10,591 bases of DNA from NCBI GenBank assembly GCA_019312705.1, contig JAFDCW010000067.1, forward strand, positions 1 through 10,591. The letters run 5' to 3'. The notes below the pieces were generated by a model. It worked only from the letters and a program-made list of their open reading frames with translations, searched no databases and had not been told where the DNA came from. Shown here piece by piece: positions 2 to 10,353 of the stretch. The stretch's first letter is position 1. Every line of letters starts with the position of its first letter. The translations under genes were made by a program, and so were the position numbers. The stretch is from Deltaproteobacteria bacterium. GTDB taxonomy: Bacteria > Myxococcota > Polyangia > Polyangiales > B10-G4.

Positions 2-232
2 CTCATCACCCTCGCCGAGCTCGACGGCTCCCGAGGAGCGGGCGCCCTCGCCGACGCCCAAAGCGCCTACGAACTCGACCCGTACAGCTTTCGGGCAAAC
101 CTCTACCTCGCCGAAGACGCCCTCTCCCGGAGGGACGAGGCGGCCCTGGCGGCACACCTGGCACAGGCACGCCGGACCCGGCCTTACGCGGCGGCGCTCC
201 GGGTGCTCGAAGCCCGTCACGGAGGACAGTGA
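2..232 (+). CDS. C-terminal end of a TPR-like protein (5' truncated)
   Basis: This is the last 76 codons of a gene that begins before the window; the frame is open from base 2 to the TGA at 230-232. The peptide is Ala/Leu-rich and helical. The stretch reading AYELDPYSFRANLYLAEDAL followed by a second Ala-rich helix matches the spacing and residues of tetratricopeptide repeats (small residues, then a Pro/Tyr turn), so a TPR-type helical repeat protein is the best guess. No catalytic motif is visible. Its stop overlaps or nearly touches the start of the next gene, so the two are probably co-transcribed and translationally coupled. TPR proteins acting as partners of membrane enzymes are common, but the role here is unknown. 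Confidence 0.65.
   Translation, partial: LITLAELDGSRGAGALADAQSAYELDPYSFRANLYLAEDALSRRDEAALAAHLAQARRTRPYAAALRVLEARHGGQ
221..226 (+). promoter_or_regulatory. Shine-Dalgarno GGAGGA choosing the start of the membrane/SpeE-like gene
   Basis: GGAGGA lies inside the last codons of the upstream gene. It is only 2 nt from the GTG at 229 but 8 nt from the GTG at 235. Normal spacing therefore favours initiation at 235, giving a protein starting MASDQ, over the two-codon-longer form. Confidence 0.5.
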
Positions 233-234
233 CC

Positions 235-2508
235 GTGGCCTCTGATCAAGCGAACGGGACGCCGTCGGTACGCAGCGGGCGCACGAGCGCCCTCTACACC
301 CTCTTCATCCTTTCGGGTGCGACCTCCCTCATCTTCGAGGTCATCTGGCTGCGCGGATTTGCCATCGTGCTCGGCAGCACCCTGCGCAGCATGGCCTGCG
401 TGCTGACCGCGTTCATGCTGGGCTTGACCCTCGGCAACGCCCTGGCCGCCCGCTTCGCCGGCCGCGGTTGGTGGAACACGCCGGCCAAGGCGCTGTACTG
501 GTACGGCGCCGTCGAGCTCGCCGTCGGGGTCTACGGCGCGGTGTTCACGCCGACCCTCTTCTACTGGCAGGATGGGTACATCTCCTGGGTCGCCAGGCTG
601 CACGGGGAGAGCGTCGCGACCAACCTCCTCGTCGACTTTTCGCTGAGCACCGGGCTGCTGGTGATCCCGACCATCGCCATGGGCGCAACTCTGCCCATCC
701 TCTCCGAGAGCCTCCGCCGCGACTCGGACACGACCTCGCTCTACGGTTTCAACCTCTTCGGCGGGGCCCTGGGCAGCCTCGCCGCCAGCTTCGTGCTCAT
801 CTATCTGGTCGGTTGCATTGCCGGCGCCTACATCACGGCCGGCATCAACGCGGCCATCTTCCTCGGCGCTCTCTTGCTGGCGAGGCGCGATGAGCCTTTC
901 TCCCTCGAGTCCGGTGCACCTCGTCCGACCGGGCCAGCAACATCAGTCGCGCCGTGGAACCACCGAATGGTGCTCGGTCTCGCGTTCTTCTCCGGCACCG
1001 TCTTCTTCGGCAGCGAGTTGGTCTGGAACCGCGTCTTCGCGCTCTTGCTGGGCAACCGCGTCTACGTCACCAGCGTGACCCTCGGCTGCATCCTCGCCTG
1101 CCTGGGCCTCAGCGCGCGGTGGACCCACGGGGCCCTGGGCCGGATGTCGCCGAACCGGCTGCTCTTCCTGGGGTACGTGACGGCCACAGTCTCCCTGATC
1201 TGCGCCATCGCCCTCGAGCCCTGGGCCCTCGGCAGCGGGTCAGAACCCTGGGCGACGGCCTCCTTCATGATCTTGCTCGTCTTCGTGCCCGCCTGCGGCA
1301 TGGGCGTCGTGTTCCCCGCACTCCTGGCCTTGCCCGCTGGGGGCACCACCCGCGCCCAACACGTCGGGCGGGTCGCGGCGCTGAATACCCTCGGCAGCGT
1401 GGCGGGGCTTTTACTAACGGCCTACGTCCTGATTCCAACGGTGGGGTCGAACCTGGTCATCCTCGCCAACGCCGGGCTGCTGCTCGCGTGCCTCGGCGTG
1501 GTCACCCTATTCGCCTCGGCGAAGGGCCAGGAAGGCCAGCACCGCATCCAGGAGCGGCGGGTCCTCGTCGCCCTGAGCCTCGCGTTCACCGTCGCCGTGT
1601 TCCTGTTTGCGGGGCGCCCCCTCGGCACGGTAGCCCCCGACCGGGCGGTAGTGGCCACCGAGGACAGCCACTGCATCTTCGAGGTCGAGCGCCTCGATAC
1701 GGGCTTGCTGCGCGTCACCTGCACCGGGACGGACCTCGTGTACCACTTCGGTGACCCGGCAACGCAGTACGTCCAAGAGACACAAGCGCACATCCCGCTT
1801 CTCCTCGCGCCGAGGGTCGCACGTACTCTGGTCATCGGCTCGGGCTACGGCATCACGGCCGGCGTATTCGGCCGATACCCCACCGTCGACCACGTCGACG
1901 CCGTCGAGATCATCCCGCTGATGGTGGACCACGCCGAGCTCTTCGCCGCGGGGAACCACGGCTACGTCGATAACCCCAAGGTCGACGTCCACGTCACGGA
2001 CGGACGCCACTACCTGACCGTCGCGCACCAGCCCTACGACGTCATCTCGATCAACGTCACCGACCCATACATACCCGGCTCGGCGAGCCTCTTCAGCGCC
2101 GACTTCTATCGCCTCGTCAAGCGACGGCTCACCGACGAGGGCGTCGTGTGCCAGCACGTCTTCGGCCCCGATCGGGCCTCCCTGGTCCACGGCTTCTCCG
2201 CCCATTTCCGCCACGTGCGCGCCATCCCGAGCTACGGGAACGGCCTGTCCCTCATCGGCAGCGACGCGCCCCTCGAGGTGCAGCACCCGGAGACCCTCGA
2301 CCACCCCGAGGTTTCCCGGATGCTGCACGACATCGGCATCGGCGTTCGGGAAGAAAGTCGCGACGAGCTCGAAGAACTTCTGGTCCGCGGCGATTCCCTG
2401 CTGGCTGACCTCGAGTCGGAGCCGGCGGCCTTCGTCAATTCCGACGCATTTCCAGCCCTCGAGTTCCGCCGAGCGGCCGGGCTGAGCGTTTTCCACAGTA
2501 ATCTATGA
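235..2508 (+). CDS. Polytopic membrane protein fused to a spermidine-synthase-like (SpeE fold) domain
   Basis: The protein is about 757 aa. Residues ~15-465 are a hydrophobic domain with roughly 12 predicted membrane segments. It includes the MGATLPIL motif typical of proteins annotated 'fused MFS/spermidine synthase'. Residues ~475-757 form a Rossmann methyltransferase/aminopropyltransferase fold: glycine loop G535-S-G-Y-G539, the acidic residue ending strand 2 at E558 (VDAVEI), and D589 in the VTDGRHYL motif. In the catalytic loop the family's D-x-[ST]-D-P reads N607-V-T-D610-P. The residue matching the catalytic Asp of E. coli SpeE (D158) is thus Asn, while the second Asp is kept. Authentic spermidine synthesis is therefore doubtful; the domain may bind a nucleoside or decarboxylated-SAM-like ligand. 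It is coupled to the TPR-like gene upstream. No direct link to the hopanoid genes is visible. GTG 229 is an alternative start overlapping the previous stop. Confidence 0.8.
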   Translation: MASDQANGTPSVRSGRTSALYTLFILSGATSLIFEVIWLRGFAIVLGSTLRSMACVLTAFMLGLTLGNALAARFAGRGWWNTPAKALYWYGAVELAVGVYGAVFTPTLFYWQDGYISWVARLHGESVATNLLVDFSLSTGLLVIPTIAMGATLPILSESLRRDSDTTSLYGFNLFGGALGSLAASFVLIYLVGCIAGAYITAGINAAIFLGALLLARRDEPFSLESGAPRPTGPATSVAPWNHRMVLGLAFFSGTVFFGSELVWNRVFALLLGNRVYVTSVTLGCILACLGLSARWTHGALGRMSPNRLLFLGYVTATVSLICAIALEPWALGSGSEPWATASFMILLVFVPACGMGVVFPALLALPAGGTTRAQHVGRVAALNTLGSVAGLLLTAYVLIPTVGSNLVILANAGLLLACLGVVTLFASAKGQEGQHRIQERRVLVALSLAFTVAVFLFAGRPLGTVAPDRAVVATEDSHCIFEVERLDTGLLRVTCTGTDLVYHFGDPATQYVQETQAHIPLLLAPRVARTLVIGSGYGITAGVFGRYPTVDHVDAVEIIPLMVDHAELFAAGNHGYVDNPKVDVHVTDGRHYLTVAHQPYDVISINVTDPYIPGSASLFSADFYRLVKRRLTDEGVVCQHVFGPDRASLVHGFSAHFRHVRAIPSYGNGLSLIGSDAPLEVQHPETLDHPEVSRMLHDIGIGVREESRDELEELLVRGDSLLADLESEPAAFVNSDAFPALEFRRAAGLSVFHSNL

Positions 2509-2521
2509 GGGTTGCGGGTGC

Positions 2522-2549
2522 GGGGATCGCCCTTCTCGGCGCGGTCCCC
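2522..2549 (+). terminator. Possible terminator-like hairpin after the SpeE-like gene
   Basis: Thirteen bases after the stop codon, GGGGATCGC (2522-2530) can pair with GCGGTCCCC (2541-2549). This is a 9-bp stem with one G-U pair and a 10-nt loop. A second, weaker 6-bp stem (CGTCGG 2555-2560 with CCGACG 2572-2577) follows. Neither has a T-tract, so intrinsic termination is not assured. In this GC-rich DNA the stems may simply mark the 3' UTR, but they sit where the left-flank unit should end. Confidence 0.3.
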
Positions 2550-2646
2550 CGCCACGTCGGCGGCCGCGGTCCCGACGACCAGGCGCCAGCGTTCGAGGCC
2601 CGCGGCTAGCCGTACCTGGCTACCCATCAGGCGAAGACTGAATTGA

Positions 2647-2676
2647 TGAACACCGTTCTAAATGAAACGTTGTTCA
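2647..2676. promoter_or_regulatory. Composite palindromic operator upstream of the hopanoid operon
   Basis: The left arm TGAACACCGTT (2647-2657) is the reverse complement of the right arm AACGTTGTTCA (2666-2676) at 10 of 11 positions, with an 8-bp AT-rich spacer. Each arm is itself an AAC-N3-GTT quasi-palindrome (2649-2657 and 2666-2674), spaced 17 bp start to start. The site therefore contains four AAC/GTT half sites, a geometry suited to one or two TetR-type dimers. It lies in an AT-rich island in otherwise very GC-rich DNA, about 90-115 bp before the first operon gene. The obvious candidate ligand is the TetR-family protein encoded at the operon's end (inference). The same bases also read TGAAC-N16-CGTT (2647-2671), which resembles some ECF sigma promoters, so a promoter/operator overlap is possible. 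Confidence 0.6.
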
Positions 2677-2690
2677 CTTTGTATTTTACA
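2677..2690 (+). promoter_or_regulatory. AT-rich box, possible -10 region of the hopanoid operon
   Basis: CTTTGTATTTTACA is one of the few T/A-rich runs in the window. It contains TATTTT (2682-2687), 4 of 6 to the sigma-70 -10 consensus. No convincing -35 hexamer lies 16-18 bp upstream, where the operator palindrome sits instead, so this is only a tentative promoter element. If it is the -10, the operator would occupy the -35/spacer region and binding there would block transcription. Confidence 0.25.
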
Positions 2691-2697
2691 GGGGTTC

Positions 2698-2713
2698 AAC
2701 CTGGCGCTAGGTT
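2698..2713. repeat. 16-bp near-perfect palindrome in the operon leader
   Basis: AACCTGGCGCTAGGTT is self-complementary except for one G/T pair (five outer pairs AACCT/AGGTT, inner GCGC). It sits between the AT-rich box and the leader hairpin. Its outer AAC...GTT bases recall the half sites of the operator upstream, but the spacing is different. It could be an auxiliary operator, an RNA stem, or chance. Confidence 0.3.
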
Positions 2714-2730
2714 CCGCGCGCTTACGGATC

Positions 2731-2748
2731 GGGCCTTTTTCAAGGCCC
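2731..2748 (+). promoter_or_regulatory. Leader hairpin directly before the Shine-Dalgarno of the first operon gene
   Basis: GGGCCTT (2731-2737) pairs perfectly with AAGGCCC (2742-2748) around a TTTC tetraloop. The stem ends exactly one base before the AGGAAGGGA ribosome-binding site. It may hold the site open, or influence its access or mRNA stability. There is no sign of a known riboswitch class. Confidence 0.35.
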
Positions 2749-2757
2749 AGGAAGGGA
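2749..2757 (+). promoter_or_regulatory. Strong Shine-Dalgarno AGGAAGGGA setting the GTG 2764 start
   Basis: The purine-rich run is 6 nt before GTG 2764. It supports that start over the upstream in-frame ATG at 2662. That ATG lies inside the operator palindrome and would add a 34-residue basic leader unlike class II HMG-CoA reductases. Confidence 0.6.
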
Positions 2758-2763
2758 CGCTCC

Positions 2764-4991
<2,228 letters not shown>

Positions 4992-4995
<4 letters not shown>

Positions 4996-7900
4996 GCACC
5001 CTCGCTCAGCCCATCGGCAGAGCCGCGGCGGCCGGCAAACTCGACGGCGAACTCGACGGCGAATCGGACGGACCGGACGAGCGCTTCATCGCCGATATGC
5101 TCCCGCGGGTATCGCGCACCTTCGCCCTGTCCATTTCGATGCTTCCGCCGCAACTCCGTGACCCGATCGGTCTCGGCTACCTGCTCTGCCGCATCGTCGA
5201 CTGCATCGAAGACGAAGCAGACTTCGACCAGGGCGCCCGGGAGGGGCTCTTCGACATCTTCGATGGAGCGATGGGCACCCAAGACGGGGGCTACGGCGCC
5301 CTCGAGGAGCGGTCCGCCGACATCAACCTCGGCGCGAACCCCGCCGAACAGACCCTCATGACGCGCGCCGGGGCGGTCTTCCGCGCCTTCCGCGCCCTCC
5401 CCTGGGCCCAGCGCGAGGCCATCCGCCCCCACGTCCTCGAGATGTCCCGGGGCATGCGCGAGTACACGGCGCGCGCCGACGCTCGGGGCACCTTCTCGAT
5501 CGACGACGTCGAAGACCTCGAGCGCTACTGCTACTTCGTCGCCGGCACCGTCGGCGAAATGCTCACCGACCTCTTCCTCCTCGAGGTCCCGTCCCTCGGC
5601 GAGGCCGAGCGCCGCATCGTGCGTGACAACGCCGTCTCCTTCGGCCTCGGGCTCCAGCTGGTCAACATCGTCAAAGACGTCGCCGATGACGCCGACCGGG
5701 GGATCTGTTTCTTGCCGACGGACCGCGCGGCCTCTCTCGGGGTCGACCTCTCCCGGCTGACCGCAGAGGACGTACGCCCCCCGGGCCTCACCCTCGTGAC
5801 GGAGATCTGCAACATCGCCGAGGCCCACCTCGCATCGGCCAAGGCCTACACCCTCGCCTGGCCCGCTGCCGAGGGCGAGGCGGTTCGTCTCTTCTGCGCC
5901 GTGCCCCTCTCCCTCGCCCTCGCGACCCTCGACGAGGTGAAGAACGGCGGCGACGCGCTGCGCCGGGGGCTAACCCCGAAGATCAGCCGGAAGCTCGTCG
6001 GCTCGATCACCAAGGACGCCATTGCCGGGGCGAAGAGCAACGAGGCGCTCGGCGCTCTCTTCGACCGCCTCGGTAGCACACCGGTCGGCGCCGATGCGAA
6101 GACCGGTATCACCACCGACCTAGACCGCCGCGAGGCCGGATCCGTCGCCATCGACCGCGCCACCGGCTGGCTGCGCGAAGCCCAGGACGACCGGGGCTTC
6201 TGGAAGGGCGAGCTCGAGACCAACGTCACCATGGACGCCGAAGACCTGCTCCTCCGGCAGTTCCTCGGAATCCGCACCGACGAAGAGACCCAAGCTGCGG
6301 CGCGTTGGATTCGCTCGCAGCAGCGAGCCGACGGCACCTGGGCCAACGCCCGGGGGGGGCCGGCAGATCTGTCGACCACGGTCGAAGCCTACGCGGCCCT
6401 CAAGCTCGCCGGCGACGCCCCGGATGCGCCACACATGGCGCGCGCGGCGACCTGGATCGTCGCCCAGGGCGGGCTCGCCGAGACTCGCGTCTTCACGCGC
6501 ATCTGGCTCGCCCTCTTCGGCCTCTGGCCCTGGGACGAGCTGCCGACGATGCCCCCCGAGTTGATGTTGATGCCCTCGTGGATGCCCCTCAACGTCTACG
6601 ACTTCGCCTGCTGGGCGCGGCAGACCGTGGTCGCCCTGACCATCGTCATGACCTATCGCCCGGTGCGCTCCCTGGGCATCACCCTCGACGAAATCGACCC
6701 GAAGCCGCGCCCCGCGCGCAAGCCCTCGGCATCCCTCACGGGACGGTTCTTCGAAAGCCTCGACCGGGTCCTCCGCGTCTACGACAAGAAGCCCATCGCC
6801 GCGCTCCGGGAGCGCGGCCTCCGTGAGGCCGAACGCTGGATCGTCCAGCGCCAGGAAGCCGACGGGTCCTGGGGCGGCATCCAGCCGCCGTGGGTCTATT
6901 CGATGATGGCGCTCACCTTGCGCGGCTATCGCCTCGACCACCCGAACATCAAGGTCGGCCTCGAAGGCCTCGACCGGTTCACCGTCCGTGAAAATGGAGC
7001 GCGTCGCCTCGAAGCGTGCCAATCGCCGGTGTGGGACACGGCCTACGCGGTCCAGGCCCTCGCCGACGCCGGCGTACCGGGGGACGACGAGGCCATGCTC
7101 CGGGGCGCCGACTGGCTGCTCGGTGAAGAGGTTCGCCAGCCCGGCGACTGGACGGTGCGCCGCCCGAAGCTCGAACCCGGGGGCTGGGCCTTCGAGTTCG
7201 CCAACGTGAACTACCCCGACGTCGACGACACCGCCGAGGTGATCATCGCCCTCCGCCGCGCGCTCCATCCCGACCCGAAGGGCGTGGAGTCGGCGATCGC
7301 CCGGGGCGTGCGCTGGACCATCGGCATGCAAAGCAAGGACGGCGGCTGGGGCGCGTTCGACGCCGACAATACCCAGGCCCTCTGCCGCGACATCCCCTTC
7401 TGCGACTTCGGCGAGGTCATCGACGAGCCCACCGCCGACGTGACCGCCCACGCCGTCGAGCTGCTCTGCCGCGAGGGCCTCGTCGCTCACCCGGCGACCC
7501 AGGCCGGCGTCCGGTGGTTGCTCGACCATCAGGAAGACGACGGCTCGTGGTTCGGACGCTGGGGCGTAAACTACGTGTACGGCACCGGCGGCGTGCTCAT
7601 GGCCCTCGCCGAGACCGACCTCGAGCCGAACGCGCCAACCATTCGCCGCGGCGTCCGCTGGCTGCACGACAAGCAAAACGCGGACGGCGGGTGGGGCGAG
7701 GACGTTCGCTCCTACGACGACCGTAGTTGGGCCGGCCGAGGCACCAGCACCCCGTCCCAGACCTCCTGGGCGCTGCTCGGTCTGCTCGCCGTGGGCGACG
7801 ACTCGGACAACCTTCGCCGGGGCATCGACTTCCTCATCTCGACGCAGAACGCCGACGGCTCCTGGGACGAGGACGAGTTCACGGGCACCGGCTTCCCCGG

Positions 7901-8048
7901 CGATTTCTACATCAACTACCACCTCTACCGGCAGGTCTTCCCGACCATGGCCCTCGGCCGCTGGGGCCGGTCCATCGGGCTCATCCAAGACGCGTCCAAG
8001 GGCGGGTCCAAGGCCGACCCGGCCCTGGTCCAGTTGCGCACCACCTAG
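4992..8048 (+). CDS. Squalene synthase fused to squalene-hopene cyclase
   Basis: This is a 1018-aa bifunctional protein. After an acidic ~30-residue leader, residues ~31-360 are a squalene synthase. It has SRTFALSI, the first Asp-rich motif D70-CIED74, VAGTVGEMLTDLF, the second motif D229-VADD233 after LVNIVK, and F301-CAVP followed by ALATL. That last block matches the FCAIPQ...ATL region of eukaryotic-type squalene synthases rather than phytoene synthases. It would condense two FPP to squalene with NADPH. A ~23-residue linker leads to a full-length squalene-hopene cyclase (~384-1018) with several QW-type repeats (e.g. DRGFWKGE, QRADGTW, QEADGSWGG, QNADGSW), the proton-donor motif D743-VDD746, GGWGAFDADN, DFGEVIDEPTADVTAH, and the C-terminal GFPGDFYINYHLYRQVFP. 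It cyclises squalene to hopene at the membrane. AGGAGAG at 4981-4987 supports the GTG start, which overlaps the previous stop by 4 bp. Both domains look intact, so FPP could go to hopene within one polypeptide (inference). Confidence 0.93.
5040..5063 (+). repeat. Two perfect 12-bp tandem repeats in the acidic leader of the squalene synthase fusion
   Basis: CTCGACGGCGAA occurs at 5040-5051 and again at 5052-5063, followed by a degenerate third unit. It encodes LDGELDGESDG at residues ~17-27, before the enzyme fold begins. It is probably a disordered acidic tail that can vary in repeat number without harming catalysis. Confidence 0.7.
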
Positions 8049-8066
8049 AACTTCACCGTGCACGCC

Positions 8067-8633
8067 ATGAGTCACAAACCCCTCGTCCTCGCACCCCTCG
8101 CGGTCGAAGCCCTCGCCATCGGGCGACGTGCGGGCTACCGCGTGGTGCGTACGGGCATGGGTCCCGACAAGTCGCGGCGGGCCGTCCGGAAGCTCGCCGG
8201 CTCGGGGTCGGGCGCCATCGCCGTGGTGGGCCTCTGCGGCGCTCTCGACCCCGTCCTTCGCCCCGGCGACGTCTTCGTCGCCGACGAGGTTCGCGGACCG
8301 GATGGCGTCGTGGTGGTCTGCGCCGCCGACGAGGTCGCCGCCTTGTGCGAGGCCGCAGGCCTGAAGGCGGTCCGCGGCGCCCTGGTCTCGACGGACCACA
8401 TCGTCACGGGCGAGGAGCGCACCGCCCTCTTCGCCGAGGGAGCGCGTGCCGTCGACATGGAGTCGGCCTACCTCGCGGAACTCGCCGCCGGGCGCCGCTT
8501 CGCCGTCATCCGAGTGGTCGTCGATACACCTTCGCGGGAGCTGTCCTCCGCGCTTCACACCGCTGTAGGCGGAGCCCGCGCGCTCCGCGTTCTCGGCCGC
8601 ATCGGCGCGGCCCTCGACCATTGGGTCAACTGA
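8067..8633 (+). CDS. hpnG: Hopanoid-associated nucleosidase/phosphorylase (HpnG-like)
   Basis: The protein is about 188 aa and belongs to the PNP/UDP/MTA nucleosidase superfamily. HpnG acts on adenosylhopane, removing adenine to give ribosylhopane (or its phosphate) on the way to C35 bacteriohopanepolyols. Visible signatures are an N-terminal APLAVEAL with E14, VVGLCGALDPVLRPGDVFVADEV, VSTDHIVTGEE, the purine/ribose-binding D130-MES, and D153 in VVDTPSREL, the place of the catalytic Asp of MTA/SAH nucleosidases. It is slightly short for the family but no core motif is missing. It starts 18 nt after the cyclase stop and ends 20 nt before the hpnH-like gene; that neighbourhood is the main reason for assigning HpnG rather than a general MTA/SAH nucleosidase. 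An in-frame GTG at 8058 is an alternative start. Neither start has a strong Shine-Dalgarno, suggesting reinitiation after the fused cyclase gene. Confidence 0.82.
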   Translation: MSHKPLVLAPLAVEALAIGRRAGYRVVRTGMGPDKSRRAVRKLAGSGSGAIAVVGLCGALDPVLRPGDVFVADEVRGPDGVVVVCAADEVAALCEAAGLKAVRGALVSTDHIVTGEERTALFAEGARAVDMESAYLAELAAGRRFAVIRVVVDTPSRELSSALHTAVGGARALRVLGRIGAALDHWVN

Positions 8634-8640
8634 GTTCGTT

Positions 8641-8649
8641 GAGGAGAAG
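8641..8649 (+). promoter_or_regulatory. Shine-Dalgarno GAGGAGAAG of the hpnH-like gene
   Basis: GAGGAGAAG ends 4 nt before GTG 8654. It fixes that codon as the start within a frame that stays open far upstream into the genes before it. Confidence 0.6.
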
Positions 8650-8653
8650 ATTA

Positions 8654-9664
8654 GTGGGAATCCCGGTTCAGCAGCAGCTCATCCTCGGCAGGTACCTGAT
8701 GAAGAAGAAGCTTCAGAGGGACAAGAAGTTCCCCCTTCTCGTCGAGATCGAGCCGCTCTTCGCGTGCAACCTCGCCTGCAACGGCTGCGGCAAGATTCAG
8801 CATCCGAAGGAGGTGCTCAAGAAGCAGCTCAGCGTGCAGCAGGTCCTCGAGGCGATGGACGAGTGCGGCGCACCGATGGTCTCCATCGCCGGCGGGGAGC
8901 CCCTCATCCACCCCGAGATGGACGTCATGGTCCGGGAGCTCTTGGACCGCGGCATCATCGTCTTTCTCTGCACCAACGCGCTCCTGCTCGAGAAGAAGAT
9001 GCACCTCTTCGAGCCGCACCCGCGCTTCGCTTGGACCATCCACATCGACGGCCTCCGCGAGAGCCACGACGAGACGGTCTGCCGCGAGGGCACCTTCGAC
9101 AAGGCCGTCGCCGCCCTCCGTGAGGCCAAGCGCCGCGGGTTCCGGGTCACGACCAACTCGACCTTCTTCAAGAGCGATACCCCGAGGAGCATCCGAGCCG
9201 TCCTGGACTTCCTCAACGACGACCTCGAGGTCGACGGCATGATGCTCTCCCCGGGCTTCGCCTACGAAAAGGCCCCGGGCGCCCAGGACTTTCTCTCGGT
9301 CCCGGAGACCCGGGAGCTCTTCCGCCACGCCTTCGCCGACGGCAAGCGCGATGGCTGGCGCCTCAACCAGAGCCCGCTCTTCCTCGACTTCCTCGAAGGC
9401 AAGACCGACCTCGAGTGCACACCCTGGGCAATCCCCAGTTACTCCATCTTTGGCTGGCAGAAGCCCTGCTACCTGATGTCCGATGGATACGTGGATACCT
9501 ACCGGGAGCTCATCGAGACCACCGACTGGAAGAAGTACGGCCGGGGCCGCGACCCCCGGTGCAGCAACTGCATGGCCCACTGCGGCTACGAACCCTCGGC
9601 GGTCCTCGAGACCATGGGCTCCATCAAACAGACCGTCCGCGCGGCCATCAGCTCGAACTCATGA
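8654..9664 (+). CDS. hpnH: Radical SAM adenosylhopane synthase (HpnH)
   Basis: The protein is 336 aa, the usual HpnH length. It opens MGIPVQQQLILGRYLMKKKL, characteristic of the family. HpnH joins a 5'-deoxyadenosyl radical to diploptene, giving adenosylhopane, the first C35 hopanoid intermediate. The [4Fe-4S] cluster motif is C38-NLAC42-NGC45 (CxxxCxxC), followed by the SAM-binding GGEP at 80-83. A cysteine-rich C-terminus, C303-SNC306-MAHC310-GYEP, and an additional KPCYLMSDGY segment are also as in HpnH proteins. The start is GTG 8654, chosen by the GAGGAGAAG site. The reading frame upstream of 8654 is Arg/Pro-rich shadow sequence over the cyclase and hpnG. The stop overlaps the ATG of the TetR gene (ATGA). 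The gene order hpnG-hpnH reverses the reaction order. Confidence 0.93.
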   Translation: MGIPVQQQLILGRYLMKKKLQRDKKFPLLVEIEPLFACNLACNGCGKIQHPKEVLKKQLSVQQVLEAMDECGAPMVSIAGGEPLIHPEMDVMVRELLDRGIIVFLCTNALLLEKKMHLFEPHPRFAWTIHIDGLRESHDETVCREGTFDKAVAALREAKRRGFRVTTNSTFFKSDTPRSIRAVLDFLNDDLEVDGMMLSPGFAYEKAPGAQDFLSVPETRELFRHAFADGKRDGWRLNQSPLFLDFLEGKTDLECTPWAIPSYSIFGWQKPCYLMSDGYVDTYRELIETTDWKKYGRGRDPRCSNCMAHCGYEPSAVLETMGSIKQTVRAAISSNS

Positions 9665-10353
9665 ACCAGGGAGCAAGAGGACGGCGGCAGAGTTCCCCGA
9701 CGGAGGGCCCGTCGGACGACGGCGTCCAACGCTACAAGGGCGCGGGTCGAAAGACGGAAGAGCGGCGAAACAAGATCGTCGACGTCGCGATCAAGCTCGC
9801 CCGGGGACGCGGCTTCGAGGCTATCGGTCTCCGCGAGGTCGCCGACGAGGCGGGGGTCGCCCTCGGCACTCTCTACAAGGTCTTCAGCAGCAAAGAAGAG
9901 ATCATCGGCGCCGCCGTCGACCTCCAGACCCGGGCTCTGCGCAAGCAGTTCGAGCGCCGCCCAGCCGAGGGGGACACCCGCGTCGAGCGCCTCGAAGACC
10001 TCTTCGCCCGGCTCACCCGAGCCATGTGCAAGCGCCCGTCCTACGCTCGAGTCATCATCGCAACCGTCACCGCGGACCACCCGGAAATCTTCGCTCAGAT
10101 CCTCGAACACGAGGGCGAGATGAACCGGATCGTCGTTGCGGCGCTACGCGGCGACAGCCCGCAGTTGGTCTTGACCGAGAGCTTCTCGGATGGCGAACGT
10201 CAGGTGACCTTCCTGGTTCGGCAAATATGGTTCGCCGGCCTCGTCGGTTGGTCCGGAGGGCTCTTCAGCCAGGCCGAGGTGGTGCAGCAGGTCGTCACTG
10301 GCGCGAAGCTCATCCTCGCCGGGGCCGCCGCCACCGGTCTCGACCTGGATTAA
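9661..10353 (+). CDS. TetR/AcrR-family transcriptional regulator, last gene of the hopanoid operon
   Basis: The protein is 230 aa. A basic, Gly/Ser-rich 27-residue tail precedes the TetR DNA-binding domain at about residues 30-85. The helix-turn-helix region reads LREVADEAGVALGTLYKVFSSKEEII (written here as the family's LRxVAxxAGVxxGTLYxxFxSKEEL pattern, ~58-82). The all-helical C-terminal half is a ligand-binding/dimer domain. Its ending, with VRQIWFAGLVGW then a valine-rich helix, resembles KstR-like regulators that sense lipid or steroid CoA ligands, though this resemblance is weak. ATG 9661 overlaps the hpnH stop by 4 bp, so it is translationally coupled and must be co-expressed with the pathway. 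The simplest model is feedback: the regulator binds the palindrome at 2647-2676 and responds to an isoprenoid, hopanoid or acyl-CoA signal. Its target and ligand are inferred, not shown. Confidence 0.88.
   Translation: MNQGARGRRQSSPTEGPSDDGVQRYKGAGRKTEERRNKIVDVAIKLARGRGFEAIGLREVADEAGVALGTLYKVFSSKEEIIGAAVDLQTRALRKQFERRPAEGDTRVERLEDLFARLTRAMCKRPSYARVIIATVTADHPEIFAQILEHEGEMNRIVVAALRGDSPQLVLTESFSDGERQVTFLVRQIWFAGLVGWSGGLFSQAEVVQQVVTGAKLILAGAAATGLDLD

Follow-up and report, generated by a model that had tools for sequence, protein, structure and literature searches.

A predicted squalene synthase-squalene-hopene cyclase fusion protein from Myxococcota

The window, that is the whole 10,591-nt stretch of DNA analysed here (contig JAFDCW010000067.1 of the Deltaproteobacteria bacterium assembly GCA_019312705.1, phylum Myxococcota), contains a gene that encodes a squalene synthase (SQS)-like domain and a squalene-hopene cyclase (SHC) in a single polypeptide. 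As read from the open reading frames (ORFs), the frame at 4992-8048 specifies 1018 amino acids and has no internal stop. A Pfam scan placed SQS_PSY (PF00494) at residues 38-329 with 169.4 bits against a gathering cut-off of 26, SQHop_cyclase_N at residues 387-668 (405 bits) and SQHop_cyclase_C at residues 678-991 (467 bits). At E 0.001, neither an isopentenyl diphosphate isomerase domain nor a squalene epoxidase domain (PF08491) was matched in the fusion protein. A preliminary description of this DNA had placed both enzymes in one chain, and this was borne out by the domain scans, a closely similar copy, 16 protein clusters from databases and conserved motif residues. The motifs that it had named, D70CIED74, D229VADD233, F301CAVP305 and D743VDD746, are all present. 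The two Asp-rich motifs of the synthase half, F301-C302 and K330-x-x-R333 were invariant across 16 aligned fusions; the latter two are presumably part of the reductive half reaction.

The cyclase half scored 750.4 bits with TIGR01507 in an NCBIfam scan, above the curated equivalog cut-off of 431.1, and both the catalytic DxDD and, in the predicted fold, the SHC architecture are present. Structural alignment with the SHC of Alicyclobacillus acidocaldarius (2sqc) covered 612 residues at 47% identity; that enzyme has the same DVDD motif (1gsz) but is free-standing, without an SQS domain. For the synthase half the best NCBIfam model was TIGR01559, ahead of HpnD (73.3 bits, below its cut-off of 278.6), CrtB (55 bits) and HpnC (49.9 bits, below its cut-off of 250.45).

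The same fusion was found on contig L001 of a metagenome-assembled genome (MAG), 'Deltaproteobacteria bacterium isolate B10_G4', where it aligned over residues 1-1017 with 90-91% identity. The gene order on L001 is that of the window, with a fused HMG-CoA reductase (HMGR)-prenyl synthase, SQS-SHC, HpnG-like, HpnH and TetR, as judged by ORF reading and, for the first three, also by BLAST. Two protein-database searches were designed for fusions by means of length limits; the best 120 of 260 matches and the best 120 of 154 matches gave 220 distinct proteins, so the architecture counts given here and below are not frequencies. Among the matches listed were 15 SQS-SHC clusters and one SQS-SHC-HpnG cluster, so that the database search for proteins with both domains suggested in the preliminary description yielded 16 clusters. 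A third search, from a distant member, recovered these 16 clusters and added none with SQS-SHC among the best 120 of 181 matches. One cluster is partial (P0112, 674 amino acids), and four are on contigs of 141,594, 225,645, 235,665 and 3,654,228 bases. Some of the fusions carry database names that cover one half only, e.g. 'squalene--hopene cyclase'. In P0011 (1224 amino acids) SQS, SHC and an HpnG-like phosphorylase stand in one chain, in the same order as in the window operon.

In the related MAG G001 (7.1 Mb), the sole SQS_PSY match and the sole cyclase were the fusion; a second place listed for the cyclase is a weak repeat that belongs to this very frame. HpnC and HpnD were not found in this MAG. 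A full-length HpnE-like match lies at 930-2282 of its contig C348, with 165.8 bits, below the HpnE cut-off of 283.05. Only the G001 match spanned both halves among 183 genomes of its order and, among the matches listed, in the 144 sampled genomes of its class. In the genomes sampled, G001 is the only member of its family. A phylum sample of 377 genomes gave 52 SQS matches in 51 genomes; 30 loci were examined, and the G001 locus was the only SQS-SHC. The fusion is rare in the sampled genomes and better known from metagenome proteins. No viral relatives were confirmed. Six loci considered as further fusions (L018, L022, L032, L040, L046 and L050) were rejected, their SQS-like pieces being weak (23-41% identity) and downstream of SHC; in L018, the only one of the six with ORFs read, these pieces are two separate genes.

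We consider it rather likely that the protein is a bifunctional enzyme taking farnesyl diphosphate (FPP) to hopene, in which a soluble SQS would be kept at the membrane next to the cyclase, in a ratio of 1:1, and squalene freed close to its user. The N-terminal domain would join two FPP molecules and then carry out a reduction with NAD(P)H to squalene. The C-terminal domain, a predicted monotopic membrane cyclase, would protonate squalene and fold it to hopene, a cholesterol-like lipid, from which HpnH and the HpnG-like protein would make extended hopanoids. Squalene is water-insoluble, and diffusion in the membrane is the usual account of how it moves from a soluble synthase to a membrane-bound cyclase. 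Eukaryotic SQS has a C-terminal membrane helix of its own, and the Alicyclobacillus SHC is a monotopic membrane enzyme. No strongly hydrophobic C-terminal tail was found in 12 unfused Myxococcota SQS ORFs (five scored, with a maximum of 0.91; seven too short to hold one). With no such tail seen in these ORFs and the SHC half monotopic by kinship, the SHC half would tether the otherwise soluble SQS at the membrane. Release of squalene beside the cyclase might bring a kinetic benefit of proximity, and a sealed tunnel is neither needed nor indicated. A natural synthase-cyclase fusion that is the sole copy found of either enzyme in a related MAG permits a direct test of how squalene passes between them.

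Several observations weigh against this reading. The synthase half scored 105.4 bits with TIGR01559, below the curated equivalog cut-off of 286.75, so our claim is that it works like a squalene synthase, not that it belongs to TIGR01559. AlphaFold predicted no fixed interface between the domains (pTM 0.63 and 0.64, with pLDDT <50 in the linker), and the linker is variable. An SQS- or SHC-type gene may have been missed in MAG G001. Fused pairs of non-consecutive enzymes (HMGR-prenyl synthase, SQS-SdmB-like dehydrogenase and HMGR-SQS) fit co-expression equally well. Direct transfer of squalene is hypothetical, and the case for a benefit from it is weakened by the frequency of non-consecutive fusions together with the lack of a predicted fixed interface.

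A less likely explanation, though the strongest of the alternatives, is that the fusion is a by-product of operon order. A stop codon would have been lost and the joined chain kept for co-expression and stoichiometry; both domains would be active, and squalene would diffuse via the membrane to any cyclase. Consistent with this are the many kinds of fusion, non-consecutive ones included (97 HMGR-prenyl synthase, 44 SQS-SDR and 4 HMGR-SQS among the 220 listed proteins), and the 4-base overlaps of a tightly packed operon at 4992-4995 (upstream fusion and SQS-SHC) and 9661-9664 (hpnH and TetR). The linker is also less conserved (42%) than the two domains (76% and 85%). In the fungal fusions EfuA and FsoA, as in the window protein, a triterpene cyclase is naturally fused to another pathway enzyme; their partner, a glycosyltransferase, acts after cyclisation; the two steps were found to be non-consecutive, and according to the available part of the source the cyclase product is captured by a separate enzyme and not by the fused partner, without need of direct hand-over (PMC12667498). 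What speaks for hand-over is that SQS is joined to a squalene-using enzyme in both branches, to SHC in the hopanoid branch and, in another lineage, to squalene epoxidase in the sterol branch, which co-expression alone does not predict, though it is compatible with it.

It is improbable that one of the halves has taken on a new function, whether by the SQS-like domain stopping at presqualene diphosphate or making dehydrosqualene, or by the cyclase yielding another triterpene. The synthase score below the TIGR01559 cut-off would suit such a change, and the HpnE-like gene of G001 could in principle act on an intermediate. However, TIGR01559 is still the best match of this domain, the residues that we take to belong to the reductive half are invariant, and the score of the cyclase exceeds the hopene-cyclase cut-off by a wide margin.

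All sequences are genomic or metagenomic, but an artefact, either a sequencing error that joins two genes or cleavage of the chain once it is made, is very improbable: L001 carries the fusion too, in an unbroken frame despite a diverged linker, 16 protein clusters have it, with contigs of 0.14-3.7 Mb for four of them, and the window linker has no in-frame ATG, GTG or TTG. Cleavage is nonetheless conceivable. The linkers of the window and L001 differ at 24 bases in 23 codons without any stop or shift, contrary to the linker stop or frameshift that the preliminary description had named as grounds for giving up the fusion. Comparison of the two genes gave dN/dS values of 0.21 and 0.13 for the two halves, i.e. 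purifying selection. For practical purposes, chance or assembly error as the source of the joint is excluded. The linker length first put at about 23 residues was a fair estimate, 32 being the present count, with a core of low confidence (Table 1). Residues 320-413, which span the domain boundary, contain no in-frame ATG, GTG or TTG, and CTG occurs only at 323 and 394. The cyclase thus lacks an evident start codon, and an internal translation start for a free cyclase was rejected for the window on these grounds. The L001 linker carries one GTG, so an internal start is conceivable there. G-x-[SP]-M is common to 10 of the 16 aligned linkers (P0004, P0009, P0010, P0011, P0013, P0019, P0024, P0029, P0048 and P0120). 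Judged from protein letters alone, it may be what is left of the original start of the cyclase gene, with its methionine and ribosome-binding site.

Table 1. Features of the window; the fusion gene and its parts are followed by the neighbouring genes.
Feature	Coordinates	Strand	Remarks
SQS-SHC fusion gene	4992..8048	+	GTG start overlaps upstream stop (GTGA); 1018 aa
Squalene-synthase-like domain, residues about 30-361	5079..6074	+	D70xxED74, D229xxDD233, F301-C302, K330-x-x-R333
Linker, residues 361-392 (32 aa)	6072..6167	+	Core 363-374, pLDDT <50
Squalene-hopene cyclase domain, residues about 387-997	6150..7982	+	D743VDD746, D816, H820, E417
Upstream fusion: class II HMG-CoA reductase + polyprenyl diphosphate synthase, 743 aa	2764..4995	+	GTG 2764
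HpnG-like phosphorylase	8058..8633	+	GTG 8058 or ATG 8067; TIGR03468 87.8 bits, below cut-off 187.1
hpnH, adenosyl-hopene transferase	8654..9664	+	GTG 8654 after GAGGAG; TIGR03470 498.8 bits, above cut-off 225.05
TetR-family regulator	9661..10353	+	ATG overlaps hpnH stop; PF00440
Membrane protein with spermidine-synthase-like domain	229..2508	+	Not clearly part of system

A tree was built from 154 SQS domains, and its 17 SHC-fused rows fell on one side of one branch, with a moderate SH-aLRT value of 85. The 13 architecture labels needed 28 changes on this tree, which indicates that the other fusion partners were swapped often. A second tree, of 119 cyclases, grouped all 16 fused rows together (100), and ten unfused cyclases joined them in the next larger group (97). 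Nine of the ten are from Actinomycetota, seven of these under the name Solirubrobacterales or Solirubrobacteraceae, and the tenth is from a bin labelled Chlamydiae. Both trees were quick ones, made without bootstrap and with long-branch warnings. Other cyclases in the 144 sampled genomes of the G001 class shared at most 47% identity among the matches listed, and that of the actinomycete L002 shared 67%. The cyclase half may have been gained horizontally from an Actinomycetota-like source; the unfused cyclase rows had been picked by likeness to the window, so that horizontal acquisition is a lead and not proof. A single origin is probable for the fusion, in which a Myxococcota SQS gene became joined in frame to an Actinomycetota-like cyclase gene. 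Among the nearest unfused SHCs in the tree, that of Solirubrobacterales L018 is followed by its two SQS-family genes, which by reading appear hpnC- and hpnD-like, so this lineage seems to use the separate-enzyme route. In shc loci with hpnC and hpnD, unlike in the window, squalene comes from separate enzymes and the genes are unfused.

The gene upstream of SQS-SHC and the hpnG-like and hpnH genes downstream (Table 1) were absent from the preliminary description. The upstream gene joins HMGR and a prenyl synthase in one chain; these catalyse non-consecutive steps. Its mechanical ORF begins at 2662; the homologue P0123 has 743 amino acids, which matches the start listed in Table 1, and in codons 1-33 of the longer ORF dN exceeded dS on only 6 differences. 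The HMGR part scored 362.5 bits with TIGR00532, above the curated cut-off of 259.95, and the prenyl synthase 122 bits with the farnesyl diphosphate synthase model NF045485, below the cut-off of 275; FPP is its likely product from its place in the pathway. The best NCBIfam match of the TetR regulator was KstR (91 bits, below the cut-off of 280). KstR is a regulator of cholesterol catabolism. The regulator at the operon end possibly senses triterpenoids. At 2400-9800 there were no promoter-like sites (0.3 expected) and four terminator-like sites (3.2 expected). In a scan of two flanking genes, the spermidine-synthase-like gene gave one weak PADLOC match (40 bits); L001 has an 863-amino-acid ORF of similar look upstream, judged by reading only.

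The preliminary description had named no characterised SQS-SHC fusion, and none of natural origin was found among the titles and abstract starts listed from an open-access full-text library, whose scope leaves most subscription journals outside. The available part of PMC12168105 describes PtIDISQS of the diatom Phaeodactylum tricornutum, in which, as in the window protein, a squalene synthase is naturally fused to another isoprenoid-pathway enzyme. Its partner is isopentenyl diphosphate isomerase, which is upstream and non-consecutive, whereas the partner in the window is a squalene-using cyclase. The Methods of PMC10070321, as far as that source was available, speak of 'fused SMO/OSC homologs'. 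Like the window protein they unite two consecutive triterpene enzymes in one chain, and such fusions were also found here in Myxococcota; unlike it, they belong to the sterol branch, on the other side of squalene, and have no SQS domain. The available part of PMC10152446 reports no obvious HMG-CoA reductase in a Nannocystis and uses 'fusion' only of steroid rings. In the main text of PMC12004948, PMC4919349, PMC10202945, PMC6226438 and PMC8692599, as available, 'fusion' and 'fused' do not occur; in the available parts of PMC12146001 and PMC10881772 'fusion' refers to solubility tags or engineered enzymes, and in that of PMC11976957 to the name of an instrument.

SQS-SHC is one group in a wide set of fused triterpene genes and no singular oddity: neighbouring triterpene genes of Myxococcota are fused in many combinations, with SQS joined to SHC, squalene epoxidase (SE), an SdmB-like dehydrogenase or a prenyl synthase. 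Besides the fusions counted above, the 220 listed proteins included 25 FPPS-SQS, 13 HMGR-FPPS-SQS-SDR, 11 HMGR-SQS-SDR, 5 FPPS-SQS-SDR and 3 HMGR-FPPS-SQS, and, as singletons, SQS-FPPS and SQS with an unassigned rest. Architectures were assigned by BLAST with domain pieces, 'FPPS' serving as a label for a prenyl synthase with no product implied. Two proteins were scanned for their SDR part, and in both the closest likeness was to the sterol demethylase protein SdmB, with a score under its cut-off. The 13 four-domain proteins, among them P0007, P0016, P0032 and P0034, unite HMGR, prenyl synthase, SQS and SdmB-like dehydrogenase in one chain of about 1.4-1.6 thousand residues.

Of the 183 genomes of the G001 order searched with P0013, 34 matched at 1e-60, 29 through the SQS domain and 5 through the cyclase only. 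SQS was in frame with another pathway domain in 24 of the 29 (11 SE-SQS, 9 SQS-SDR, 2 HMGR-SQS-SDR, 1 HMGR-FPPS-SQS at a contig end and 1 SQS-SHC) and separate or broken in the other five (G023, G414, G502, G510 and G540), with Pfam scans on examples. As a still more tentative and somewhat doubtful generalisation, Polyangiales-type Myxococcota may build the route from HMG-CoA to polycyclic triterpenes out of interchangeable multi-enzyme proteins that share one framework, HMGR-prenyl synthase followed by SQS with a partner. An SHC partner would lead to hopanoids, and other partners together with fusions of SE and oxidosqualene cyclase (OSC) to sterols, squalene passing between fused active sites at the membrane and bypassing the bulk lipid pool. 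The wider set offers natural designs for microbial triterpene production and a module-level view of how the hopanoid and sterol routes diverged in Myxococcota, a phylum from which eukaryotes may have obtained their sterol synthesis, as has been proposed (available part of PMC12004948).

Fusions of SE with OSC were seen in L146-L149, L152-L155, L182, L184, L187, L189, L190 and L197; they have about 1.14-1.2 thousand residues where complete and are often near SQS-SDR genes. In L182, a locus of the G001 order, HMGR-FPPS, SQS-SDR and SE-OSC adjoin. Loci with these epoxidase-cyclase fusions are likely sterol loci. SE-SQS fusions of about 1.0-1.4 thousand residues occur in Myxococcota at L141 7609-10875, L147 5819-9250, L144 4562-8173 and similar places. 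In two of those scanned, L133 and L144, the middle region has a weak match, below cut-off, to the squalene cyclase C-terminal domain, and perhaps represents the remains of a cyclase.
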